From positions 1,178,001 through 1,242,000 of the forward strand of contig WHUZ01000001.1 in assembly GCA_015179045.1 (NCBI GenBank): a stretch of 64,000 nucleotides of DNA, given 5' to 3'. Source of the stretch: Kalaharituber pfeilii. Lineage: Eukaryota > Ascomycota > Pezizomycetes > Pezizales > Pezizaceae. Positions 2,256 to 63,700 of this stretch are shown piece by piece. Both the position numbers and the translations under genes were made by a program. How positions within the stretch are numbered: position 1 is the stretch's first letter; every line of letters starts with the position of its first letter. The notes under the pieces are model-generated. The model saw only the letters and a program-made list of their open reading frames with translations. It was not told the DNA's origin and did not search any database.

Positions 2256-3587
2256 TTAGGTAGGTGCATGGCTAAACAGGAAGGAAACACTTTCTCCATT
2301 GTGGGTTCGTCGACAAGCCTCGGCCAACTGTGATATATGTTCATGAGAAATTGCTAAAGGTATGATAGAGGGCCAACTTACTGTAGGCGCGATGTCAATA
2401 GTATCCAATTTACTGCACATTGCTTTCTTTTCCGCATGGGGAACCGTGTTTGTCACAACAACTCGGCTCAATTGGCTGCCATTGATGGCTTCGATGGCTT
2501 TACCACTCAATATACCATGGGTGACGATTGCAACCACCTCCTTGGCGCCATGCTGTTTGAGGGTCTCTGCTGCCTTGACAAGAGTGCCGCATGTGTCCGC
2601 CATATCGTCAACAAGAATCCCAATCTTGTCCTTGACATCTCCAACTAAGACCATGCGGGATACCTCGTTGGGCCGGGATCGCTCCTTATGAATCAGGGCG
2701 AAGTTAAGATCGAGACGGTCTGCTATTGCCGTGGCACTAGAGGAATAACAGTCAATAGGCGAGCCGTAAACATGACAAAGCCGTAACAGCCATACCGTTT
2801 TGCTCCACCAGCATCGGGAGAGACGATCACAGCATTCTTCCAATCGAAGTTCTCCCGGATATATCGCAACATAGATGGTTCAGCATAGAGCTAGAGACAT
2901 GCTTAGTAAGCATGTGCTATAGTATCAGCATGGAGCCTACTTCGAGCTTACACTGCAGTAAGTGTTAGCTGATTGCATCACCCATCCAAATGTGGTCCAA
3001 AACGTACTTGTCAACAGGAACATTGAAGAAGCCTTGGATTTGACTGGCGTGCAGGTCCATCGTAATCACATGGTTGCATCCAGCAACCTGCAGCATGTTC
3101 GCTATTAACTTGGCCGAAATTGGCGCTCGGCTTTTATCTTTTTTGTCTTGTCGAGCGTATGGAAAATTTGGGATAACAGCTGTTATACGCCTTGCGGAGG
3201 CAGTTTTACAAGCGTTGATCATGATGAGAAGTTCCATGAGCCCATCGTTGATCTCACCAGGCGCAGTAGATTGCAGGATGAAGACTGCCGACAAATATCA
3301 GTCACTAGGGGTGTAGAGTAACTGAGGAAAGCTTGAGGTACCGTCTTCGTCTCTAACACTTTCGCCAATAGTGATGGATGTTTCCTGATTTGAGTACTGA
3401 AGAACCAAGATCTTGGTGAGCTCGACACCCAATCTGAGCCAGTCACTATCAGCTATTGGCTGAGATACTGAGGTCACTGCTCTGCAATTGAGCTGTAAGA
3501 TTGAGCTATCACATACCGGTCCGCAACCAGTCTCGCCAGTTCGGGGTGGCTGTTCCCCGTCAACAGTTTTATCGAATTTGTCGCCAT
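2256..3587 (-). CDS. Ribose-phosphate pyrophosphokinase (PRPP synthetase)
   Basis: Makes PRPP from ribose-5-phosphate and ATP for purine, pyrimidine, His and Trp synthesis. It starts with the family N-terminus [18 protein letters not shown]. It then has the [22 protein letters not shown]-binding loop, the [12 protein letters not shown] metal-binding segment, the PRPP-binding loop [13 protein letters not shown] and the typical C-terminal end [12 protein letters not shown]. Exons on the minus strand run from 3587. The third exon ends at 3008 after GTT GAC AA and the next recognisable exon begins at 2890 with Leu-Tyr-Ala-Glu-Pro. Joining them directly shifts the frame. Inserting one T at 2952, flanked by CAG and GTAAGC, gives the conserved Val-Asp-Asn-Leu-Tyr-Ala-Glu. 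Later exons are about 2890-2796, 2736-2382 and 2327-2256. The last intron (2381-2328) is 54 nt with no in-frame stop, so its retention would add 18 residues. One of several fungal PRS paralogues; which one is not clear. Confidence 0.92.
2952..2952 (-). other. Putative single-nucleotide micro-exon of the PRPP synthetase gene
   Basis: On the minus strand the base T at 2952 is preceded by an acceptor CAG (2955-2953) and followed by a donor GTAAGC (2951-2946). The upstream intron 3007-2953 is 55 nt, starts GTACGT and has a GCTAAC branch site 12 nt before its end. The downstream intron 2951-2891 is 61 nt, contains TACTAAG and ends CTCTAG. Both are ordinary introns for this genome. Only a one-base exon joins the phase-2 end (AA) to the phase-0 start (CTC) and gives the conserved Asn codon AAT. 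Not proven without RNA. Confidence 0.62.
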
Positions 3588-4285
3588 GTCGCAAGATACG
3601 TCTCACGTCGATATGCAGACTGCGTTATTGAGGTGGTAATTGGAATGCTATTTGCTCTGTAATAAAACCGGGCGAAGGAAAAAGGCGGCGATGTTAGCTC
3701 ATTCTAGCTCCAGAAGGAAAATGAAAAATGGAATAAAGAGACAGAGGGGCTTGTTAGCCGGGTGTAGAGGGACACTTACCCTGCGGTTAAGGCTTAGCTG
3801 TCGTCCCGAGTGTTTCGAGTTGATGCCTGCTAGCTGGGTGGCTATGAGTTGCTAATACCTACAGGAGATAGATTAGCTTGTAACTAGAAATCTTGCACAG
3901 CTATCATCCTGTTGACCAAATGGCGATGTCAAATGGCGGCAATCAAAAGCAGGGAAAAATCACGTTTGGAAAAAAAAAAAAAAAAAGAAAGAAAAAAATT
4001 GCTGCATCGATGGTTGCGCGTGGGCAGGGGTGTGGTGGGGGTGGGGTGGGGAGTGGGGAGTGGGGAGTGGGGCAACCCGTGAGAAGAAAGGTATAAGCGG
4101 TCACGTGACGCAGATCGCTCGCAACTCGACACATGAGATGTATAGTACAGAACCGGGGCTGGGGGGTCTCGGGTGGGAGGTCCGGGTTGGATCGTTACAA
4201 GTAGTTTCATCTTGGAAGAAGAGTGATAACTTTATAGATCTAGATACGCATTTCCATGAGATCTATTCTCCATGTTCCTGAATTA
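3588..4285. promoter_or_regulatory. Upstream region of the PRPP synthetase gene with poly-A tract, G-rich repeat and E-box palindrome
   Basis: No gene is supported here. From the PRS start outward the stretch holds an A-rich run at about 3969-3997, a G-rich tract at 4027-4072 with (GGGGAGT) repeated, and a perfect 10-bp palindrome GTCACGTGAC at 4100-4109, which contains the CACGTG E-box core. The palindrome lies about 510 bp upstream of the ATG. Its role in regulation is inference only. Confidence 0.35.
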
Positions 4286-22021: not shown

Positions 22022-25000
22022 ATGGTCAAGAAGAAGATGTGAGTTTTCTGCTTCCTGTATGGGCATTAGGAGGAACTAGCGGATGTTTCAGCTGGGTGAA
22101 GGATTCGAATTGCGAAGAAGGTGGATGAGAAGCTAATTGGGGGGTTTCCAGCGACGCTCGGATTCCGGCGCTGATTCGCAATGGGGTACAGGTTCGTGGA
22201 CACATCTTGTCGCCACAAATTCTACCTTGAGCCAAATGGAGAAAGGGAGTCGGTGTCCTGGGGGCCCAAGTAACTAACCGTCACCGTCACCAACGTAGGA
22301 GAAAAAACGCAGCTTCTTCGTCGTTGTGGGAGACCGTGGCAAAGATGTGATTCTGCACCTTCACTACATCCTCGGCAACTGCGACGCCAAACAAAATAAG
22401 TCTGTTCTTTGGGCCTACAAGCACAAACTGCTCGGCTTCACCAGCCACCGCAAGAAGCGCGAAGCGAAGATCAAGAAGGAGGTGAAGCGGGGTATCCGGG
22501 AGGCGAATACGGAGGACCCGTTCGAGCTTTTCATCAGCTTGACGAATATTAGATATGTGTATTATAAGGAGACGGACAAGATTCTGGGGAATACGTATGG
22601 GACTTGTATATTGCAGGACTTTGAGGCGCTGACGCCAAATTTGTTGGCGAGGACGATTGAGACGGTTGAGGGGGGCGGGTTAGTCATTTTGTTGCTGAAG
22701 ACGATGTCGAGTTTGAAACAGTTGTATACGATGGCTATGGTGGGTGATTCTGGTTCCAATGCGGGAGAATGGGAATGAGGTACTGATATTGATATGGATT
22801 ATTTAGGATGTGCACGCACGATATAGGACAGAGGCCCACGATGATGTGGTGGCGAGGTTTAACGAGCGGTTTATCCTGTCACTTGCAGACTGCGCAAACT
22901 GCCTTGTTATTGACGACGAAATGAACGTCCTGCCTATCTCCGGTGGAAAGACAATAAAAGAACTTCCGCCGCTGAGTGAGGATTCCGGAAAGGCTAAGTT
23001 AACGGCGGAGTTGAACGAGATCAAGGAGAGCTTAGCAGAGGTGCAACCAGCCGGCCCCCTGGTGAACCTAACAAAGACGGTCGATCAAGCCAAGGCAGTC
23101 ATGACCTTTATCGATGCAATTGCGGAAAAGACGCTCCGGAGCACGGTTACCCTGACAGCTGCTCGCGGTCGCGGTAAATCCGCTGCATTAGGTATTGCGG
23201 TTGCAGCGGCCGTGGCGCATGGGTACTCCAACATCTTCATCACCTCCCCCAGTCCCGAGAACTTGAAGACGCTCTTCGAATTTATCTTCAAGGGCTTTGA
23301 CGCTCTGAACTATAGCGACCATCTCGACTACGACATCATCCAGTCGACAAACCCCGCATTCAACAAGGCGATTGTGAGGGTGAATATACACCGGCAGCAC
23401 CGGCAGACGATTCAGTATATACAACCTCAGGACGCACATGTCTTGGGCCAGGCGGAGTTGGTGGTCATTGACGAAGCTGCAGCGATCCCGTTGCCATTGG
23501 TCAGGAAGCTGCTAGGGCCGTACCTGGTCTTCATGGCGTCAACAATAAACGGGTATGAAGGAACCGGAAGGTCTCTTTCGCTGAAGCTCATACAGCAGCT
23601 GAGAGAGCAGTCAAGCGGCGTGATAAAGCCTACAGAAGGCGAAACCGCCGACCGCTCAGGCAAAGCTACGAAGGGAGAAGTCTCCGCGTACGGCGGGCGC
23701 ACACTACGGGAAACGACGCTGTCAGAGCCGATTAGATACACGCCTGGGGATCCCGTCGAGGCATGGCTGAATAAGCTTTTATGTCTGGACGCTACGTTAC
23801 CGACGGCGGGAAGAGTTAATGTAGGCGGGACGCCATCACCGGATAAGTGCGATTTATATTCGGTGAATAGGGATACACTATTTTCGTACCATCCTGTGTC
23901 GGAGAAGTTTTTGCAAAAGATGATGGCACTATATGTGGCCAGTCATTACAAGAATTCGCCGAATGATTTGCAGCTCATGTCTGATGCGCCAGCGCACCAG
24001 CTGTTTGTCCTCCTGCCGCCAACGGAAGAAGGGAGTAAGCAGCTACCTGACCCGCTAGTCGTGATCCAGGTTGCACTAGAGGGTCAAATCTCTCGACAGA
24101 GCGTGCTGAATGCGTTGAATAGGGGTAGAAGAGAAGGAGGTGACTTGATTCCGTGGTTGGTATCGCAACAGTTCCAGGATGAAGAGTTTGCGGGATTGTC
24201 GGGGGGGAGAGTGGTAAGGATTGCGACGAATCCGGATTATATCAGGGTAACTACGCATTTCGCAGGATATACGCTACTTTTGTCTAGTCATGGATAAATT
24301 GCTAATGAAATCCAATTCAGATGGGTTACGGCAAACGCGCCCTACAATGCCTTATCGACTTTTTCGAAGAAAAATTCACCCCTCTCGACGAAAACCCCGT
24401 TTACATCGATGAAAACATTTCCCGCATAACTGACACAGACCTCGAAAACGCCACCCTTCAAACCGACCACATTACCGTCCGCGATCCTAAAACCCTCCCC
24501 CCCTGCTCCTCCGCATGTCCGAAAAGCGCTCCCCGAGACTGGACTACATAGGAGTCTCCTACGGCCTTACTCCTGCTCTACACAAGTTCTGGAAGAGATC
24601 CGGGTTTGCCCCAGTGTATCTAAGACAAACGGCGACGGAGTTAACGGGCGAGCATTCATGCGTCATGATTCGGCCGATTGAAGGCAAGGAAGCCAGCTGG
24701 TTAGGGGCGTTTGCGAAGGACTTCCATAGACGTTTTGTGCAGTTGCTGTCGTACAACTTCCGTACCTTCTCCGCGACTATGGGGCTCATGATCTTGGAAT
24801 CTGCAGCGATGGGTGCGAAGTTAGATACGGCGCCCGCTAAGGCGAATGCGAAGCCGCTTGATAAGGAAGCGGTAGACGCGCTGTTGTCACCGTTTGACTT
24901 GAAGCGGCTGGAGACATACGCGAACAACATGTTGGACTACCACGTCATCGTAGACCTGGTTCCGCTGATTGCGGATATGTACTTCAAAGGACGACTAGGG

Positions 25001-25597
25001 GAGGGGGTGCAGTTATCGCCGGTACAGCAAGGAATACTGCTCGCGATCGGCCTGCAACGGAAATCGGTTGAGGAGGTGGAAAAGGAGATGGGGTTGCCGG
25101 GACAGCAGGTGCTGGCGATGTTCATCAAGGTGGTGCGAAAAGTCGCAATGTACTTCCGCGGTCTCCTCGCCGAGGCTGTGGCGAAGGAGCTTCCGGACGC
25201 AGAAGCCGGGCGGTCAAAAACATATTCTCGCATACCGGGTGAGGATGGCGTGGTGGAAGGGGCGGAGAAGTTTGCTCCACTGGAACAAGGAGTGGATGAC
25301 GATCTGAGGGAGGCGGGAAGCGAGGCGATGAAGGCCTATAGAGAGAAGCAGAAGCAATTGATTGAAATGTTGGATTTGGGAAAGTATGAGATTCCGCAAG
25401 AAGGTGGGGCGGAATGGGAGGAGGCAGAGAAGTTGGTTGGGGGGAAGGGCGCCACGACGGTCAGTGTGAAGAAGGTAGTGATGGAGGGCGGGGAGGGAAA
25501 GGGCAGGAAGAAGAGGAAGGCGGTAACAGCGGCGGAGGTGTATGATCAGGAATTGGGGGAAAAGGAGAGGAAGGGAGGGAAGAAGGGGAGGAAGTGA
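22022..25597 (+). CDS. KRE33: RNA cytidine acetyltransferase (Kre33/NAT10), with apparent one-base frameshift
   Basis: Nucleolar enzyme making N4-acetylcytidine in 18S rRNA and some tRNAs; needed for small-subunit assembly. Exons: 22022-22038, 22152-22191, 22299-22739, 22807-24246 and 24321-25597. Motifs in order: PALIRNGVQ, SVLWAYKHKLLGFTSHRKKR, ILQDFEALTPNLLARTIETV, the Walker-A-like AARGRGKSAALG, the DEAA box VVIDEAAAIPLPLV, and the GNAT core PDYIR joined to MGYGKRALQCLIDFFEEKF. Then come LDYIGVSYGLTPALHKFWKR and a basic C-terminal nucleolar tail ending KKGRK. In the last exon the frame breaks at the C7 run 24497-24503. With eight Cs the protein reads KTLPPLLLRMSEKRSPRLDY as in the family. 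A 50-nt pseudo-intron could restore frame but would delete conserved residues. Confidence 0.93.
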
Positions 25598-33890: not shown

Positions 33891-36800
33891 ATGGCGAACA
33901 TCTTGGAGAATTCATATTCGCTTGTTCTGATGGACAATGCGGCCGACCAGCCAACCATCCAGCAGCTACAACAACAGTTGGAGAAAGGCACAGATGAGAG
34001 CAAGTGCGACACCATGCGACGGATCTTGACGATTATGCTCAATGGGGAACCTCTCCCACAGCTTCTTATGCACATAATACGGTTTGTAATGCCATCGAAA
34101 CATAAGCCATTGAAGAAGTTACTCTATTTTTACTATGAAGTATGCCCAAAGCTGGATGTCAATGGGAAATTGAAGCAGGAGTTTATCCTGGTCTGGTAAG
34201 TTCACCAGTCCTGGAATATCAATTGGGCTGTTAATAGCATGTCACTAGTAACGGAATACGCAATGACCTCCAACATCCCAATGAGTATATTCGTGGGAAC
34301 ACTCTCCGATTCTTGTGCAAGCTGAAAGAACCCGAGCTTCTTGAACCGCTGCTTTCTTCACTTAGGGGGTGCCTGGAGCATCGTCATGCATACGTACGCA
34401 AGAATGCTGTTCTTGCGGTTCAATCAATATACCACACCGCTGAGCACCTAATACCTGATGCCCCAGAGCTCCTACAGACGTTTTTGGGAGCAGAAAATGA
34501 CACTACGTGCAAGAGGAATGGATTCGTTGCCTTGAGCAGCGTTAGCCCTGAGAAGGCCCTGGAATATGTCAATTCCATTTTCGATGAAATCACGTCTGCC
34601 GACGAATTGACACAGCTTGCTTTACTAGAATTCATCAGGAAAGATGCTCTTCGTAATCCTGCAAATAAGGTTAGGAGATTGAACAAACATGCTCTGGGCC
34701 AAACTTATGCTGGTTATTCTAGGCAAGATACTTGCGACTTATCTTCGACTTGCTGGAGGTTTCATCCAATACTGTAGTGTATGAGGCTGCCACATCACTC
34801 ACTGCGCTCACCAACAACCCTGTCGCCGTTAAGGGTAATTTCGACATCACTAGACTTTGTTGAACATATACTAATATCTTGGTAGCCGCTGCTTCAAAAT
34901 TCATTGAATTAAGTATCAAGGTTTCTGACAACAATGTGAAGCTTATCGTGCTGGAGCGTGTTGATCAATTGAGGAGGAAGAATGCCGGAGTACTGGATGA
35001 CCTTACTATGGAGATTCTTCGTGTTCTCTCCAGGTACAGTATACAGCTGCACCATTCGAGGTTTCAATGTCTGACGGTAATAGTCCTGATCTTGATGTCC
35101 GGAAGAAAGCTCTTGAGATCGCGATGGAGATGGTCTCAAGCAAGAATGTTGAGGAAGTGGTATTACTTCTGAAGAAAGAGCTTACCAAAACTGTGGATCA
35201 AGAATATGAGAAGGTCTGTATCATCCCCTAACTATTTGTATTAGCGAGTCTTACCTTCCTTCCAGAACAATGAGTATCGCCAGGTTTTGATCCACTCAAT
35301 TCATTCCTGTGCCATCAAATTCTCCGAGGTGGCAGCTAGTGTCGTTGGATTATTGATGGATTTCATCGGCGACTTTAATAATACCTCCGCCGTGGATGTG
35401 ATAGCATTTGTTAAGGAAGTCGTGGAGAAGTTTCCAAATCTCCGCTCAGATATATTACAAAGACTTACCGCTACATTGAGTGAAGTTCGTTCTGGGAAGG
35501 TGTCCAGGGGTGTGCTATGGATCATTGGAGAATACTGCGTCGAACAATCTGGTTTGAATCTCTCTTTGCAATGTGTGGAAAAACGTAGCTCACTCGTGTA
35601 CAGCTATCAGGGAAGCTTGGAAACGGATTCGCGCGAGCTTGGGTGAAATACCTATTTTGGCTACAGAGCAACGACTGCTTGATGAAGCTGTGGACGAAAA
35701 TGCTGAACAACAAGCTGCCGCCAAAGCTGTACCATCGGCATCCAGAAAAGTTCTTGCGGATGGAACTTATGCAACAGAGAGTGCACTAACTAGCGAATCA
35801 GCGCGCGCAGCCAAATTAGAGGCAGTGAAGGCAGCGTCGAAACCCCCACTCAGAGCCCTTATCTTGGATGGTGACTTCTACCTCGCTTCTGTATTAGCTT
35901 CCACACTTACCAAATTGGTAATGAGGCATTCTGAAATTTCATCGGACAAGGCCAGAACGAATGCTTTGAAGGCCGAAGCGATGCTTATCATGATTTCTAT
36001 AATCCGTGTAGGCCAGTCTCAGTTTGTGAAGACACCGATTGACGAGGATTCAGTTGATAGGATAATGTCATGCGTGCGGTCCCTAGCAGAATTTGAAGAG
36101 AAGAAAGAGCTCGAGACAGTATTCCTGGAGGATACAAGGAAAGCATTCCGGGCTATGGTTGTTGCAGAAGAGAAGAAACGAAAGGAGAAGGACGACATGG
36201 AAAAGGTGAAGAATTCGGTTCAGGTGGACGATGTTGTACCCATCAGGCAGCTGGCAAAGAAGAATGTTGTCGAAGGATCCGATGAGATGGAGCTTGACCT
36301 CGAGAAGGCCACCGGCGGAGACGCCAACGAAGGAGACTTAACATCTAAACTGAGTCGTGTAGTACAACTCACTGGCTTCTCCGACCCTGTATACGCAGAA
36401 GCGTATGTCAAAGTTCACCAATTCGACATCATCTTGGATGTCCTACTGGTGAATCAAACCACGGAGACTCTTCAGAATCTCTCAGTGGAATTTGCAACTC
36501 TGGGTGACCTAAAGGTGGTGGAGCGACCAACTACCCAAAATCTCGGCCCACATGGTTTCCTAAGTGTACAATCTACCATAAAGGTTTCTTCTACAGACAC
36601 TGGGGTCATATTCGGAAACGTTGTCTATGATGGCCCAAGCTCGACAGAGACGAATGTGGTTATCTTGAACGATGTTCATGTGGATATCATGGACTATATC
36701 CAACCAGCTTATTGCAGCGAAACCCAGTTCCGTACGATGTGGACGGAATTTGAGTGGGAAAACAAGGTCAACATCAATGCAAAGGCTAAATCATTGCGGG

Positions 36801-37126
36801 AGTTCCTGGAGAATTTGATGAAGTGCACTAATATGGCTTGCCTTACACCCGAAGCCTCGCTGAAGGGTGATTGCCAATTCCTGAGTGCAAATCTCTACGC
36901 TAGAAGTGTCTTTGGTAAGTTCGCTTCAGGAAGTGGTTGAATAATATAGGCCGCTAATGTTGTGCTTCCATTTGTTTAAGGCGAGGATGCGCTTGCAAAC
37001 CTCAGCATCGAAAAGGAAGGTGAAGATGGACCAGTGACAGGTTTTGTCCGTATCAGAAGTCGATCCCAAGGCCTTGCTCTCAGCCTAGGGTCATTGAAGG
37101 GCTTGAGTAAGGTGGGCGGTTCATAG
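33891..37126 (+). CDS. SEC26: Coatomer subunit beta (beta-COP, Sec26)
   Basis: Large HEAT-repeat subunit of the COPI coat for Golgi-to-ER and intra-Golgi transport. Eight exons: 33891-34195, 34249-34669, 34723-34834, 34886-35033, 35084-35213, 35266-35551, 35604-36914 and 36981-37126. Introns are 50-66 nt, mostly ending TAG or CAG. Motifs: [87 protein letters not shown] joined to [14 protein letters not shown]. The appendage domain ends near [19 protein letters not shown]. The total is about 950 aa, as expected. It is divergent from mago nashi. Confidence 0.95.
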
Positions 37127-38312: not shown

Positions 38313-40000
38313 ATGTCGCAAGGTTTGGATCTTCTAACAATCAGCTCAACGCTGTCGCTGGGTATTGCCGATGACTCGCTGCAAATTACAGGTGAGTTTG
38401 TAGCTCTTTAGTAGAAAACGAAGGTAGTGTGCAATGGACCTCTAACTGCAAGATGATCAGATAATCGCCTTAACAAGAAGAAGAATCGGTCTAGCTGCGG
38501 GAGCGCAATTTGTGGTACGTACTTTCGCCATATCGTTATATAAGCTCTTTCACGTACTGACATTAGACGGTCTTAGACCACCGTGCTTCTACTCGCCAAA
38601 TCCCGTTGTACGATATCCTCTGGGCACAACTGTCCAACTCAACACTTACAATCGACTATGCCGAGCACAAGTCGAAGACGAATGTGAAGCCCGCCACATT
38701 AGAATACCCCATCAAGGATTTGGATGAAGGAATTGTGGAGGGATGGTGTTCGCTGCTCTTAGAGCGCGCATATGGGGGTACGTTTATACCTTGCATGTAT
38801 GGACATCCTTTTCTAATGCGATGCCAGAGGCATTACCTGGAAAGCGGGTGAAGGTCCTGCTGAATCCCTATGGTGGTCAAGGGCTTGCAGCAAAGCTATG
38901 GGCGACACAGTGTGAGCCATTGTTCCGGGCGGCCCATTGCAAAGTGGATGTTGAACAGACAACGTACCATCAACATGCGATGAAAATAGCGGAGGAACTA
39001 GACATCTCCGCGTACGACACTGTGGCCTGCGTTTCCGGCGATGGTATCCCACACGAGGTATTTAATGGCTTCGCTAAGCGTAAAGATGCACGGGAAGCCC
39101 TGCGCAAGATCGTTGTATGTCAGCTCCCAGGTGGTTCTGGGAACGGCATGTGCTGGACTCTGACTGGCACAGATAGTGGAAGTCTGGCTTCGCTGATATA
39201 TATCAAAGGCGTGAGAACACCAATTGATCTTGTCTCAGTGACCCAGGGAGACAGGAGATTGCTATCGATGCTGTCACAGTCGTTTGGAATTGTGGCAGAG
39301 GCGGATCTGGGGACGGAAGACTTGCGGTGGATGGGGGGGTTCAGGTTTACGTGGGGATTGTTGACAAGGATATGGGGGCAGGTGGCATATCCTTGTGACA
39401 TTGCGTATGCGGCGGTGATGGATGATAAAGATGCTATTAGGGAGTACTATAGGCAGGGCGTTAACTCGACGGTGGAGGGCGAAGTCGACAATTACGATGG
39501 GCTGCCACCATTGAAGTATGGTACAGTTAATGATGAGCTACCGGAGGGTTGGAGCCTGGTTCCACATCCGACAATTGCGAATTTCTACGCTGGAAACGTG
39601 GGTTTGAGACCTCCATCCGCAAGGTTACTTCAGGTTTTCTGACTTACAAACTTTACAGATGTCTCGCATGTCCGCCGATGCTACCTTTTTCCCAGCCGCC
39701 CTGCCCAACGAAGGCCTCTTTGATGTCATTATCGGAGACTCCAAAATTAGCCGTATGACCGCCCTCAAAATGCTGGCAGCCGCGCCCGACGGTTCTCACT
39801 ACGACATGGACTGCACAAAGTACCAGAAAGTCGAGGCCTATAGACTAGTACCTCGCGGCAAGAGCGGGTATATCAGCATTGACGGCGAGGCGATTGAGTA
39901 TGCGCCGTTTCAGGCGGAGGTGCATAGGGGGTTGGGAACGGTGCTGACGAAGGATAGGAAGTATACAGGAGGGGAGGTGCTTTTGAAGAATAGCGCATAG
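38313..40000 (+). CDS. Sphingoid long-chain base kinase (Lcb4/Lcb5 family)
   Basis: Diacylglycerol-kinase-fold enzyme that phosphorylates sphingoid bases, acting at membranes in sphingolipid turnover and signalling. Five exons: 38313-38391, 38461-38514, 38577-38777, 38828-39597 and 39659-40000; all phases agree. Motifs: QIPLYDILWAQL, the nucleotide-binding VKVLLNPYGGQGLAAKLW, AYDTVACVSGDGIPHEVFNG with the SGDG catalytic loop, CQLPGGSGNGMCW, IKGVRTPIDLVSVTQGD, SFGIVAEADLGTEDLRWMG, YPCDIAYAAVM, and the C-terminal strand RGKSGYISIDGEAIEYAPFQAEVHRGL. The total is about 480 aa. Whether it is Lcb4 or Lcb5 cannot be told; many filamentous fungi have one. Confidence 0.93.
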
Positions 40001-41256: not shown

Positions 41257-42708
41257 TGTCGGAGGTACAGAGGAGTAGAAGTTAATTGTGTGGGGGGCGG
41301 GATGTGTCAACGACGGGCTTTTCTTCTCCTTGTATAATTATAATTGATGAGATATCAAGTTGATATGCTATTTGTCGTATGTAGTTCGGTCGATTGCTAT
41401 TGCATGAGCCTCGACAGCATAAATTTTTCAAATGGGAGGGTAGTGAATGCTTAGTCAGGCATGTCACGCTCACGTGCTGTACTGTGCTGTGCCGCAATAT
41501 GTAGTGCATATGATATACTAGTACTAGTAGAGTACATAGACTTGGAATCAGAACAAGGTATAGGCACTGGACTTTATGGCAGAGTACGCTCAAGCTCAAG
41601 AGGCTTCCAGCACAGCACATGGACGAGAGTCTTGTACCAGTGGTAAAGTATGCCGCGCTGTAGGGGCTTGGTATCATATGACTACTGCTGCCGCCCTGCT
41701 GCACTGCTGCCCTGCTGCCCCTGCCGCCGCGCCATATCATATCATATCATAAACGAACTCCGGCCAATGAACCCTGCGCATTGCCGCAAGCTCCAAACAA
41801 ATTTACCCTGGCCCACCGGAAAGCACTGCATATCAAAGCAGCTTGGCGTAGACGCACCGCATCGTCATCGTCATGGGGGAAGCTGGTGTCACAACCGGCC
41901 TCGGCCACGAGGGCTCCGACGAAACGTGCCCTGCCCGCTTGCCGCACGCCTTGGTAGCAGCGAAATGCGATGCCGCCGCCGCCGCCGCCGCTCGGGAGCG
42001 GCGAGTGCTTACCGCCTATGATAGATATGGATATGTACACGATATACTGATCGTATCCGATACCTGCAGAGCAAAGTTGCCAAGTGAGGTCTGAGCAAGG
42101 CCCACTTTGTCCTGCCACTCCACTGCACCCAGCACTATCATGGTCAAGGCGCAAGGTGGCCCACCCTCTACATCAGCCAGAATCGGCACCCATACGTCTT
42201 GACCTATCCATCCCACTCGTAGCTTTTTGCATCTCATTCCCCGCCGCTGGATTCGGATTCGAATACCCACCTAGTCCACCTGACCGCAATATTCTTGGGC
42301 ATCCGTGGCTATCCGTTCGCATCCTGCAGTCTACCGCTATTTTTCTGCCTGCACTTTCGTGCCTCTTTTTCCCAGCGATCTCACCGGGGCCCAGTTCAGA
42401 AATTTCATTATTCGACGCTTCTGCCTGCGTGAAGAGGTGAAGAGGTCCGTTTCCTCACCCACCTTGTTTAAGGCATTCTCTGGGTGTCTTGTTTTAGGTT
42501 GGTCAGTACACTCCTTGCACTGCACATCTAGCCTTCCACGCCCCCGCGCTCTCTCGCTGTTCGATTCCCGTTCCCCCGGGGGTTGGCTTAACTGTCTCGA
42601 ATCCTTAAAGCTTGTAATCACGGCAAGGCACCACTAAAAAGTCAATTCTAGAGATAGATTTAGACTTGATTGTGCATTCAGCAGAGGATATATAAGCTTC
42701 GATCAATC
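41257..42708. other. Divergent intergenic region between RRP1 and NTE1
   Basis: About 1.45 kb. It contains CTG/CCG-rich low-complexity sequence near 41680-41735, a (ATATC) microsatellite near 41735-41750 and a (GCC) run near 41970-41990. Several short frames exist, none with a recognisable domain. It probably carries the long leader of NTE1. Confidence 0.45.
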
Positions 42709-45700
42709 ATGGACGAGGCCACCACATCAGTCTTTATGGGCCCCTTGACGGTGGAAACTGCCAGTGCCACTCTTTCAACGTATACTGACCCTTCTGCTTC
42801 TACGACAGCAGCAGGATCTTCATTTATGTGGACAATCTTTTCTGCAATATACAGTACGGTATACCTGCTGCCTAGGACAGCCATTGCCTTCATTACCTTT
42901 GCTACATATACATTACCTACATGGCTATTTACACTTTTCAGCACCTCATTGACGGTCACAATGAACTTTACCACCCTCCTCTTCATAATATTCGCAATCG
43001 GGTCGGGGCTGGTATGGCTGATTCGGTATCGACTTCTCAATATGTACCCCTCATTACCGCATGAACCTCAACGAAAAGAGCCGGTAATAGACCTTTTTCC
43101 AGATACTCAGGAGGGGGATTCCAAACCTGGCCTATCAAACTACTTGGACGAGTTTCTGAGTGCAATCAAAATTTTTGGTTATCTGGAGAGGCCAGTGTTC
43201 CATGAGTTGACAAGACATATGCAGACAAGGCGATTGATCGCTGGAGAAACTCTTCTGCTAGAGGAAGAAAAAGGATTCTGTCTGGTAGTTGATGGGCTAC
43301 TACAAATATTTGTTAAGCAGAACCGAAACGGCAGAGAAGCTGAATATAACTGTTTCGAATGTAGCGACTACCATGGTGATACTAGGGCTAGTAGGAGGAA
43401 AAGAGACCCCAGTGAGGATGCGTACCACGATGAAGAGGATGAAAGTGAGAACCGTGCACAAGGGTACCAGCTACTTGCTGAGGTTAAAAACGGGGCACCA
43501 TTGAGTTCGCTATTTACCATCCTAAGTCTGTTCACTGAAGATGTAAAATTACGACAAGAGTTTGAGGAACTTGATGGAGGTACTGAGTCTAGCGCAAGCA
43601 GCAGTGCTCATGGATTCAGCCGCCAGAGTAGCGGGTTGGCCGAGGGAGCAGTTGCAGGGACAGGAGAGGCATACACTCCCTTGGCTGATAGCGAGAGGCC
43701 GGGGAGCAGTGGTGAGGGCAAAGATGGACTTTTGATGCAAAGGGGACCTAGTGGAGGGCTTCATAGGGAACCCCTCCCATCGATACCACCTTTGTCACTT
43801 GATGGAGGTAGTCCTATGCATCAAACAAGGCCTACGACCCCTTTGGAGACACCAAACTCGCAAGCTCACATTGAAGCTCGGCCTAAGCGTCCAAGGCTAA
43901 AATCAAGGAAGGCACAGTCCGTTCATCCTGACCTTATAGCGAGGGCTTCGGTCGACACTACAATTGCTGTAATACCAGCTACGGCATTTAGACGCCTGAC
44001 AAGGATTTTCCCTAAAGCGACTGCTCACATCGTCCAGGTCATTCTTACTAGATTTCAAAGAGTCACATTTCTCACAGCATATTCATATTTAGGCTTAACG
44101 GATGAGGTACTACGGACGGAGAGATTTATGAATAAGTATACTATGTATGAGCTTCCAAACTATCTTCGGGGTGGAGCATTAGATCGACTCAAAGAAAAAT
44201 TCAAGGCGGAGCAAGAGCGTGCCGGCCCGGAGGATCACATGAAAGGAATTGTCCTTCATAATCCTTCAGCGGCAGGTCATAGGAGAAGAATATCTTCAAC
44301 CTCAATGCGGAAAGAGGCCGTGATTCATGCTAGGCTAGCCAATGCCAGGGGAACGCCTTCCCCAGCTTTGGATACACCATCACCATCCTTTCGACGTAAT
44401 AACAACGGCAATGAAAATGGCGGAGAGGGTGCGGGTGACTTACAGACTAATGTCCAATTTCTCTCGCCTCGAGGAAGATGTGGAATCCAGTCATTTACTC
44501 CTTTGTCTGGTAGCCATACAAATTTTCATGAAGGATATGATGAGAAAACACCGCCTGGGCTCGGCTTTAATCCGTTTGCAAAAAGTCATGGCCGGTATCC
44601 CCATGATGCAACGGTACACACGATAAGTGAAGACACTGCTTTCAGGGAAGCTGTTTTAGAGTGTATTTACAAGGCTATTGGACTTACTCAGCCAATTAAA
44701 CCGCAAACCGACTCCGCAGATCACTCTCCAGGCCTTACTTCATACGATGCACGCAAGCCTAAAACGGTTTTCAGCAACGCTTTTGGAATGCTTGAGCCTT
44801 TTGAAGGAATGGACGATTCAGACTCGGTAGTGTCAACGGCTTTGTCGGCAGCAAGTACAAGTGGGGGAATGTTTGGTCAGCACGCAGATATGAAGAATGA
44901 AATTGATATTGTATTCTTTCCTAAGGGCTCTGTTCTGGTGGAGCAAGGTGAAAGAAATCCGGGCCTGTATTATGTCATTGATGGTTTCTTGGATGTTTCA
45001 ATCCCCGTTGAGGACAAAAAGAGTAATAACAGTACCTCCTTCAAACTCGGCGTGGGTGGACATGCCACTGTACCAAATCATGAACTACCTCCCTTGACCA
45101 GAACAACTACTGGTTCAAGTTACAAGTCAAATTCCAAGTCTGAGGGTGGAGACAAGAAGATGGCAAGGAAAAGCTTATTCATGATCAAACCAGGTGGCAT
45201 TGCCGGGTATATTGGTAGCATGTCAGCTTACCGTTCTTTCATTGACGTGAGGGCGAAGACGGATGTCTATGTGGGGTTTTTGCCTACAGATGCCCTAGAA
45301 AGAATTGTGGATAAGCACCCAGTCGTGCTGCTGACAATGGCGAAACGATTGACAAGCTTGCTGCCTAGGTTAATTCTGCATATTGATTTTGCTTTGGAAT
45401 GGGTACAGGTGGATGCTGGCCAAGTCATTTATCATCAGGGAGACGAAAGTGATGCAATTTACATTGTGCTGAATGGGCGTCTGAGGGCAGTTATGGGCGA
45501 TCAAGCAGGGAAAATGCAGGTGGTTGGTGAATTTGGGCAGGGGGAAAGCGTTGGAGAGTTGGAAGTTTTGACAGAAACAACTCGACCTGCGACAGTTCAT
45601 GCTATACGAGACACAGAATTGGCCAGGTTCCCTAGAACATTATTTAACAGCCTTGCCCTTGAGCACCCCGGAATTACCATGCAGATTTCCAAGATCATAG

Positions 45701-47626
45701 CGTCCCGGATGCGAACTCTAACCGATAATCCACTCAAGGTGGATTATTCCCCTTCAGGAATTACTGATCGTACATCTGCAATACCTGTAAAGAGAGGCAC
45801 AAACAGTACAATGAATCTACGAACTGTGTGCATCCTTCCTGTTACGGCCGGAGTCCCTGTAGCAGAGTTTGGTAATCGACTATCCAATGCATTACAACAA
45901 GTAGGGATGCCAAACGGTGTTACACTACTAAATCAGGCAGTAATTTTGAGCCATCTTGGGCGCCATGCATTCAGCAGGATGGGGAAGCTAAAGTTGTCCG
46001 GCTATCTTGCTGATCTGGAAGAGAAGTTTGGTATGGTTCTATATGTTGCCGACACGAATGTGAACGCCCCATGGACGCAAACATGTATTAGTCAAGCCGA
46101 TTGTATCCTAGTTGTTGGTCTAGCAGAAGCAAGTCCGAAGATTGGAGAGTACGAGAGGTTCCTCGTTGGCATGAAAACAACAGCAAGGAAGGAGCTGGTT
46201 CTGTTGCATGTTGAGAGATATTGTCGACCAGGATTGACCAGGAAATGGCTCAGAGTAAGCTGACAGACTTGGGTATAACACTATGGATACCATCACTGAC
46301 TACGAGTCTAGAATCGAATTTGGATAAACGGCGGTCATCATCATATTCAAATGGCATTCAGAACAACTCCTGAGCCTGTACACCCCCAAACGAAGAGATT
46401 TGGCTCTGTGCTCAAGCAGCGTGTACAATTTCTACATGCCGAGATTGCCAAATATACATCTCGGCGGATACTGAGCACCCCGATATATTCATCGGAGACA
46501 CCATTTAAAGGCGATTTTCACCGGCTTGCGCGTCGATTGTGCGGAAAATCTATTGGGCTGGTGCTAGGTGGAGGCGGTGCGAGAGGTATAGCACAAGTTG
46601 GTCTGATAAGAGCATTGGAGGAAACTGGTATTCCAGTGGATATCATTGGTGGTACATCCATTGGTGCGTTTAACGGAGCTCTATACGCAAGGGATGCGGA
46701 CATAGTGCCTGTATACGGAAGAGCAAAGAAATTTGCGGGCAGGATGGCTAGCCTGTGGCGTTTTGTGCTTGATCTCACATACCCTTCGTATGTCCCCTTT
46801 ATACCCGCACCATTTGTGCTTCTAACTAATTATAAATATACAGATGCTCGTATACTACAGGCCAGGAATTCAACCGTGGAATATTCAAGACATTCGGTAA
46901 TTCTCAAATTGAAGATTTCTGGTGAGCGAATGGCGGCAAGGTATCACCGGAGTGCATGGTAGGGCTAACAAAAGATACAGGCTTGAATTCTATTGCAATA
47001 CAACTTCCATATCCAAGTCCCGCATGGAGATTCACACCTCAGGGTACGCATGGCGATATATCAGGGCATCCATGTCCCTTGCCGGTCTGCTTCCTCCCCT
47101 GTGTGAGGATGGCCAAATGCTTCTAGACGGAGGTTATGTCGATAACCTCACCGTAGCGCACATGAAATCCCTCGGTGCAGACATAATTTTCGCAGTGGAC
47201 GTGGGATCAGTCGACGACAACACACCTCAGCAATTCGGCGATAGTCTCTCTGGCGTCTGGGCATTCTTCAACCGATGGAACCCCTTCTCTTCATACCCGA
47301 ACCCACCCACCCTCGCGGAAATTCAGGCGAGATTGGCGTACGTTAGTAGTGTGGATGCGCTAGAGCGGGCAAAGATGATACCGGGTTGCATCTACATGAG
47401 GCCCCCGATCGATGCGTACGGAACATTAGATTTTGGAAAGTTTGACGAGATTTGTGAATTGGGGTACGAATATGGGAAGAAGTTTCTGGCGGAGCTGAAG
47501 GAGAAGGGCGGCATTGACGGGTTGTGGATGGATAGTAGCGGTATTTGTGGGGCCGGAGGGGGAACCAATGGAGATAGCAAGAGAGAGGTGAGAAGGATGA
47601 TGGCGCCGAGAAGGGCGAGTATATAA
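42709..47626 (+). CDS. NTE1: Lysophospholipase Nte1 (neuropathy target esterase family)
   Basis: ER-anchored phospholipase B that deacylates phosphatidylcholine to glycerophosphocholine. Four exons: 42709-46254, 46312-46787, 46844-46921 and 46981-47626; the introns are 57, 56 and 59 nt. The N-terminal helices lie at about residues 35-115 ([31 protein letters not shown]). A first cNMP-binding domain follows ([20 protein letters not shown]), then a Ser/Pro-rich linker. Two more cNMP domains follow ([36 protein letters not shown]). The patatin domain has the oxyanion loop [12 protein letters not shown], the nucleophile elbow GGTSIG and the catalytic Asp in LLDGGYVDN. The protein is about 1,580 aa. 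The assignment is secure. Confidence 0.96.
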
Positions 47627-60765: not shown

Positions 60766-63700
60766 CTAAATCGGCGGCATCTCAGCCCACTGCTCCTCAA
60801 TCATGTCCCACGATCCCCCCACATCTGCAACTTCCCTATCCACCGCACTCAAGGTGGGGTTTCCATTCCCTTGTTGCGCACCATTTCCATTATTACTACC
60901 CTGTGAATTGCCTCCGAAATTGCTACCATTCCCATTGCCTCCATTGACTTCGGCCAGCAGGTCGCTCACTCCATTTCCGCCAATACCGCCAATACCAAGA
61001 ACTTGCATCTTCTCCAGCTCTCTTGCAAAGAAGTCTCGCTCCTCGTCGAGCATGCCCTCGTTTGCGCCCATACTCTGAGGGTATCTCTGGATGTTATAAA
61101 ATGTTGTCAGCGCCCTTATTGCCTGCTCCTGTGGCAATGCGTCCTCGACCTCTGCGTCAACGTCGGACCCGGCTAGCCAATCGTCCCGTAGTTCCGGCCT
61201 GCAATGAAGGTATATTCCCGTGATAACCTTCATATTACCTTGCCTCCATTTCCTGCCGCAATATGGAACTTGGCCCTTAAAGAGCTTGAGTGTATACAGT
61301 CGCATATCCTCCTGCGAGCACTTCAGCGCTTTCCGCAAGGATGGCGAGGATTTGTATTGCACAAGCAAGAGGTTGCGGTGGGCCTTTCCTTTGCAAATCT
61401 TCTGCATGATGCGGAGGTAGTTGATAATAGTGAAAAAGTTTCTCCAGGAGAAGTCTGTGATCACTTCAGGCAAGAATTCTTTCTTTCCCTCGCCATCAGT
61501 TTCGGGGCTCGTTGCGTTTGACTGTCCCGCCTGATCCGATGCTGGTGGCTGTAATGGAGGCAGCGGCGGGGGCTTATTGGGAGGTGGAGCAGGCGGTGGA
61601 AGTGTATTCCTTCGGATTCTAATAGGTGGAGGAAGCGCTTCGTCCAGGTCAAAATCATCGTCTTCTTTGCTGCTCTGGTGATTCTCGCTGTCATCAATGT
61701 CTGTGGGCGAAGAAGGTGCGGGCTCCTCTTGCACATCAGGTGATGCCGAGTTCAGCTTACAGAAATGCAAATAGCTATATAAACGTATCTTAGTTCATGT
61801 CCAGGGTTCAGTGCGCAACATATAGGCTTACGAATACTCTTTCCAGTCCGTCTTGGTATTGACATGAGTTGCTACGTCCAAGTGCGTGAATATTCGTAAC
61901 ATCAATGGTAAGTAGCTAGTATCCAACAAGATCTGCGTCAAATATTCAAACTTGAGGACATCTATTTTAGTTGCCACATTAGTGAATCGGTAACTAAGTA
62001 GCAAAAGTAAAGGTAACATACGTGAGACCCTGAACCATTTCAGAAGTAATAGAAAAATTGCGGATACTGCTTTACTCATGATTTCTGTTTCCCTCATCGC
62101 ACTGAGCTTCGCTTCATCCCTCACGGCACTGTTTGCAGCATTCGCCTCATTGTGGTCACCACCCATGTTACGCCTAGGACTAGATTCATCTGGTATACTC
62201 TGGAAGACAAGACCTGTGGGAGAATAAAGGTTCTGAAGAACCACTTTTAAACACACAATTATGAATGATTGAAGGTTTGGAAGGCAAGTTCGCTAAGATC
62301 TGTCAATAGAATGGCCAAAATCCCAACATTCGAGAAAGACTTACGTAAAGATCTTCCACAGTTTGTAACCTCCGTTCTTCCATACAAGTCTCTTTTCCGT
62401 GCTTATTCACCCCAATTCCTCCGTCGTTGGTATGGATTCCTTCCGTATCATTCTCGGCGCCAATACCAACAGCCCATCCTCGCTCATGTCGCAAAAATTC
62501 CTCCCTTTCTTTCCATAGTTGCCTCATTGCCAATGTCATCCTAATCCGGCGTTGAAATAAATCACCGGCTTCAGAAATGCTTTCCGGAACGCTAGAAGCT
62601 TCACCTCCACTGCCTTCTACTCTTCTCCATTCAGATGATGTAGATGAATTTGGAGGGGGGTATAGAAATGGAAAATTTTGGTTGGTCTGGTAATTTTGTT
62701 TCTTCGCGCCCTTAGTCCCTGCAGGAGAGGGAGGGGGCGAAGGGGCTGGCGTAGCAATATGAACCGGTTGATTCAAAATAGAAGAAGTAGTGCCACCAAG
62801 AATACCATTCGCCCCGACTGTGCAGTGATTGCTGGATAAACCGTCGTAAGGACCACCCAACATCCCGCCGCCTTGGCCTCCAAGATTGGTAGAACTGTTG
62901 TTACTTCGCTCTATTCGTTATATATATCAGTACAGAAGCCTATAACAATAGAAAAATCCGACATACTGAGTCCTTCAATTTCAAAGCCATTCACAGGCGG
63001 AGGCGGATTATATGCAGGATACTTTGCCAAAATGTCTTGTCTAAAGTTGTGGTAATCCAAAGGTGATGCAGTAATTACTTTTTTATCGACACGTTTACTT
63101 AAACCTTCTTTAACCCTTGCCCAACTTTTTGTCTTTGCCAGGTGCTTGGGACTCTTCATGGAACCTATTGTGACAAGGATTGCTTTCCATGTTAGCAATA
63201 GAAGTTGCTGTAAGGGAATTTTGTCCTTTTGTTTTTCATCCTCTTGCCATCTGATTTGAGATATGGTTTTGACGAGCCATGGGAGAAGCAGAGGATCCAA
63301 GTCAGCAAGTTCGTCACGGAGAGCATCACATTCCGCAGGGGTTGCGGCCTTGTACAATGGTGGGCGATGAAGACTTGAACCTGACAGAAAAGAGGATGAA
63401 GGTGAAACTTTTCGAGAGGAAACCGGATCTGCTAATGCCGAAGGTGTGTGCACGGTAAATATGAAATATAATATTAATATGGAGTTACGGAGCTCCTTAA
63501 GATCTAATAATTGCTGCTCAGTTGGAGGGGGTTCCGGAAGGTATATATTATCCCTAAAATCGAAATGTTAGATTTGAAGTGTTCCCGGATGCAAGGTATT
63601 TCTTTGCTGAGTACCAAGTTTTTGACATGATCCCTCTCAATACCTGATAAACTGCATCAATTGCAGCACCCTTTCGTAATAGTTTCGCATTTTCCACTAC

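Follow-up and report, generated by a model that had tools for sequence, protein, structure and literature searches.

Probable one-base exon in a PRS4-like gene

A single T at position 2952 of the window (the whole 64-kb stretch of Kalaharituber pfeilii DNA analysed here) very probably forms a coding exon, lying between two short introns of a PRS4-like gene and supplying the third base of a conserved asparagine codon. K. pfeilii is a desert truffle, and Kalaharituber is placed in the Pezizaceae, Pezizales. The gene at 2256..3587 on the minus strand is, by its predicted product, a PRPP synthetase, in agreement with the identity proposed in an earlier note on this DNA. The product contains Pribosyltran_N and Pribosyl_synth domains and aligns over its full length with known enzymes, human PRPS1 and PRPS2 aligning with it from residue 5 or 6 through 319, and its best database match was P0001, a public K. 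pfeilii protein. The assembled product has 320 amino acids encoded by seven exons, the one-base exon included, and the four coding introns other than the two which flank position 2952 measure 83, 57, 59 and 54 nt. The gene was assembled from the following features.

2256..3587, minus strand: coding sequence of the PRS4-like ribose-phosphate pyrophosphokinase; ATG at 3587, stop codon ends at 2256
3517..3587, minus strand: exon 1, 71 nt
3342..3433, minus strand: exon 2, 92 nt
3008..3284, minus strand: exon 3, 277 nt; closes with GAC AA, the AA being the first two bases of the Asn147 codon
2953..3007, minus strand: putative 55-nt intron preceding the one-base exon; starts GTACGT, ends CTGCAG; GCTAAC at 2969-2964 as branch site
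2952, minus strand: putative one-base exon, T; third base of the Asn147 codon
2891..2951, minus strand: putative 61-nt intron following the one-base exon; starts GTAAGC, ends CTCTAG; TACTAAG at 2908-2902 as branch site
2796..2890, minus strand: exon after the one-base exon, 95 nt; starts CTC TAT GCT GAA CC in phase 0
2382..2736, minus strand: penultimate exon, 355 nt
2256..2327, minus strand: last exon, 72 nt, carries the stop codon

Exon 3 terminates with GTTGACAA, after the second base of a codon. The homologous exon that follows opens with CTCTATGCTGAACC at 2890 in phase 0, so that a single junction falls one base short. Between them the T at 2952 is preceded by CTGCAG and followed by GTAAGC on the minus strand, 55 nt beyond the donor at 3007 and 61 nt ahead of the acceptor at 2891, and this is the sole occurrence of AG-N-GT within 3284-2796. 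Taken as an exon, this base both restores the frame and completes the conserved protein sequence, giving the codon AAT (Asn147) and the motif VDNLYAEP. The phase gap, the isolated T with its acceptor and donor, the two intron lengths with their own branch sites and the restored Asn-Leu-Tyr-Ala-Glu had all been read from the sequence in the earlier note, and each was found again here.

Both flanking introns are complete in length, donor, branch site and acceptor, the downstream one being weakish (see below). The best branch sites in a de novo model were GCTAAC and ACTAAG, and in both introns the branch A lies 12 nt from the intron end. Against the Aspergillus consensus sequences quoted in PMC12403724 (RYURAY for the branch site, GURWGY for the donor), GCTAAC fits and ACTAAG fails at the last base, while the donor GTAAGC fits and GTACGT fails at +4. 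The branch site of the second intron lies inside a near-palindrome, ATGCTTACTAAGCAT (2899-2913, minus strand). Predicted RNA structure across the one-base exon was no more stable than that of shuffled sequences (z-score 0.04).

Asparagine was present at position 147 in 238 of 240 listed homologues, a non-random sample made up of the best 120 of 7,992 and the best 120 of 7,427 matches. The two exceptions in this sample both carry lysine and are the public K. pfeilii model P0001 and P0008 from Ascobolus immersus, whereas the asparagine is kept in P0002 (97% identity; longest contig 1,465 nt) and in the Peziza protein P0003 (95%). Two paralogues were found (C330 and C328), and on reading by eye D-N-L-Y is uninterrupted by an intron at this site in each. 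With a fragment of the spliced protein as query, no K. pfeilii transcript fragment appeared by name among the best 120 of 7,427 matches, the best identity being 92%. A search for papers on the corresponding human residue (N144H or Asn144 of PRPS1) returned none. In P0008, a PRS protein which also comes from the Pezizales, the lysine in place of the conserved asparagine may reflect a real AAG codon or the same hidden exon.

Splice signals and alternative splice paths

Splice signals were scored with a position-weight model of donors, branch sites and acceptors, self-trained without proteins on 262 kb of the K. pfeilii genome (the window and 20 neighbouring stretches). Relaxed mining gave 174 unvalidated candidate introns, some of them surely false, and strict coding flanks gave just 5 introns. 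The set of 174 contains three other introns of the PRS4-like gene and neither of the introns flanking 2952. Relative to this set the first intron (3007-2953) scored at the 82nd percentile and the second (2951-2891) at the 9th, and the other four introns of the gene scored at the 82nd, 70th, 81st and 3rd percentiles, the last value being that of the accepted intron 2381-2328. A hypothetical single 117-nt intron also reached the 3rd percentile.

The splice signals at 2952 exceed chance. An acceptor and branch site as good as those preceding 2952 accompanied 136 of 33,524 AGs, and when an equally good donor one base further on was added the combination occurred once on both strands of the 262 kb, at 2952 itself (0.4 expected). 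In this rough self-trained model the chance of such good signals arising in the gap, with 27 allowed places, was approximately 2e-5. As a control, 18,254 117-mers were taken from both strands of the window at every 7th base, and YAG-N-GTRNG with both introns of at least 45 nt was seen in 98 of them (26 distinct places), four of which were the 2952 locus. When both branch motifs were added, seven 117-mers from two places remained, and since four of these seven are again the 2952 locus the control is strengthened. Dinucleotide shuffling of the interval, in which its 6 leading and 30 trailing bases were kept in place, gave the YAG-N-GTRNG layout in 91 of 20,000 sequences, with the branch motifs also present in 16. 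A loose scan with coding flanks returned a single candidate exon of 1 nt, which was 2952 itself, together with 3, 1, 4 and 2 candidates for exons of 2, 4, 5 and 7 nt, respectively, two of which outscore 2952. As rival micro-exon candidates are obtained in this way, splice signals alone are insufficient as proof, and it is homology, not motifs, that carries most weight for the proposed exon. The top candidate of the loose scan is a 5-nt exon at window position 39177 on the plus strand, with introns of 62 and 73 nt, and may be due to chance.

Splice paths were also enumerated with at most two GT/GC-AG introns of at least 35 nt and with ends between 3045 and 2850. This yielded 72 paths with an open frame, among which the path with the one-base exon ranked first against the Peziza homologue with a score of 1544; the runner-up (1531) adds three residues and requires a GC donor. 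Two other canonical solutions each keep the reading frame open. One uses the weak donor 3003 and a single intron of 113 nt, yielding VDKYLYAEP with an additional residue; the other places a 10-nt exon between two introns. Both, however, add residues to a motif that is identical in nearly all listed homologues, and donor 3003 scores -1.2 in the splice model compared with 4.6 for donor 3007. We consider splicing by such a path extremely improbable.

The public gene model and competing explanations

The public protein P0001 was identical to the assembled product except for N147K. When all other exons were left unchanged, Lys147 arose from none of the intron pairs that combine GT, GC or AT donors with AG or AC acceptors. 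Among the paths tested it could be obtained from a single 116-nt intron, and only with ends GT..TA, TA..AG or AG..CT. Because Lys147 thus needs a non-canonical 116-nt intron, the model suggests that the annotation of P0001 met the same missing base. A paper which covers K. pfeilii (PMC7550596) describes JGI annotation as aided by transcriptomes when these are available, and P0001 presumably stems from that work. P0001 would be most easily explained if a transcript had been forced onto the genome and one of its bases had found no place there, a genomic G being taken instead. A base lost from the genome sequence would yield the same artefact, and the model therefore tells that one base is missing, not which cause lies behind it. 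Probably the one-base exon was missed in P0001 and the public gene model needs correction.

Loss of a base in the assembly is the main doubt about the one-base exon. Single-base indels are a usual fault of long-read assemblies. One base might have been dropped at an exon edge, for example where GG was read as a single G (the true sequence then being AAG ahead of GTACGT, with Lys147) or where a T or C in front of CTC was lost. A single canonical intron of about 117 nt would then suffice, and the inner signals would be there by chance. The donor and branch site of such an intron are fair in the splice model, and the lysine in P0001 and in the Ascobolus model would suit an AAG preceding the GT donor. 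Intron length is a weak argument against it, because 40 of the 174 unvalidated candidates measure at least 100 nt and the 5' leader of the gene may itself hold a 123-nt intron (3657-3779, minus strand, GTAAGT to TTACAG, with two GCTAAC branch-like sites). We nevertheless judge a lost base to be unlikely. The error would have to fall at one of a few positions, and a loss giving lysine would also abandon the residue kept in all but two of the listed homologues, the two closest relatives included. The inner AG-N-GT and branch site would be expected by chance with a probability of about 2e-5 to 5e-3, depending on the test used, and from reading of the sequence the inner acceptor, if used alone, would lead to a stop within a few codons.

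The geometry is also near that of a stwintron (spliceosomal twin intron), in which a splice signal of the outer intron is itself interrupted by a first intron, so that sequential removal is obligatory. The arrangement resembles the ascomycete stwintrons described in PMC12403724 in that two U2 introns would be removed in two steps from one interruption. Unlike in stwintrons, the splice elements of an outer intron are all unbroken, the second intron having an intact donor, GTAAGC, which begins one base past the first intron, and one base would stay behind as a coding exon. No donor, branch site or acceptor of an external intron was found to be divided by an internal one, and a genome search with the 117-nt stretch brought up no further copy, hence no sign of a spread element. 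A true stwintron at this site is accordingly highly unlikely. A repeated or mobile intron was rejected, the 117-nt stretch matching the genome only at its own position.

Splicing model, precedents and implications

We infer that both introns are spliced in vivo, the T at 2952 acting as a constitutive exon between two short U2-type introns, each of which would be recognised separately by intron definition. Splice sites in ascomycetes are paired through intron definition (PMC12403724). Removal of one intron would join the T to one of its neighbouring exons, and the remaining intron could then be spliced in the ordinary way, since the donor, branch site and acceptor of each intron survive removal of the other. 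As both introns have their own signals, two successive ordinary reactions would suffice, in either order. The joined exons would rebuild the AAT codon of the conserved Asn147, and the predicted by-product is a transcript in which 3008 is joined straight to 2890 with the frame shifted. The earlier note held such an exon to be noteworthy for exon definition in a fungus; exon definition is not strained, as ascomycetes use intron definition and both introns are about the length of the others in this gene.

That note also described one-base exons as extremely rare with a precedent in plants. A fungal precedent exists as well. In Fusarium CYP621A a one-base exon is supported by RNA reads in two species and is claimed by its authors as the first for a fungal gene (PMC12940212). 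The K. pfeilii gene resembles it as an ascomycete gene with one base between two introns inside a conserved motif, with AG-N-GT flanks, noticed through a phase mismatch and with gene models that are wrong at the site. The Fusarium exon is a G in the middle of a Gly codon and is common to 20 orthologues (PMC12940212), whereas the K. pfeilii base is T, the third of an Asn codon, seen in one species of another class. Since the genes differ, the K. pfeilii case would be independent. In plants, a single-nucleotide exon of APC11 was proved by cDNA, reporters, RNA-seq and RT-PCR (PMC4674806) and one of VPS55 by RNA-seq and RT-PCR (PMC8831610), and in each, as here, one base with splice sites on both sides completes the reading frame; the stretch in APC11 spans 422 nt (PMC4674806) compared with 117 nt in K. 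pfeilii. Exons of one base escape ordinary read mapping, as the example of soybean APC11 shows (PMC8831610). A one-base exon has also been described in placozoan mitochondrial cox1 (PMC5436844). Among the papers listed by literature searches on single-nucleotide exons and fungal microexons there was no nuclear fungal case besides CYP621A, and two papers on fungal mitochondrial introns use the term single-nucleotide exon (PMC12308204, PMC8208691).

If confirmed, this would be, as far as the literature listings show, the second case of a one-base exon in a nuclear gene of a fungus, found in another fungal class and in a core gene of nucleotide synthesis, and intron definition would again be shown to tolerate the smallest possible exon. 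Confirmation would also show that public models can conceal one-base exons, leaving one wrong residue together with a non-canonical intron as a usable search signature. More tentatively, and with considerable doubt, the one-base exon might be old and selected across the Pezizales, with the Ascobolus lysine hiding the same exon. In that case the present arrangement could be a stable one that came about through the origin of a second intron at a distance of one base from an older intron, and could precede either a stwintron or an intron shift of one base.

Elsewhere in the window, Pfam matches pointed to conserved genes for a NAT10-type RNA cytidine acetyltransferase at 22807-25597, coatomer beta at 35558-36940, a phospholipase of the neuropathy-target-esterase type at 42670-47626 and a DUF3402 protein at 60766-61794.
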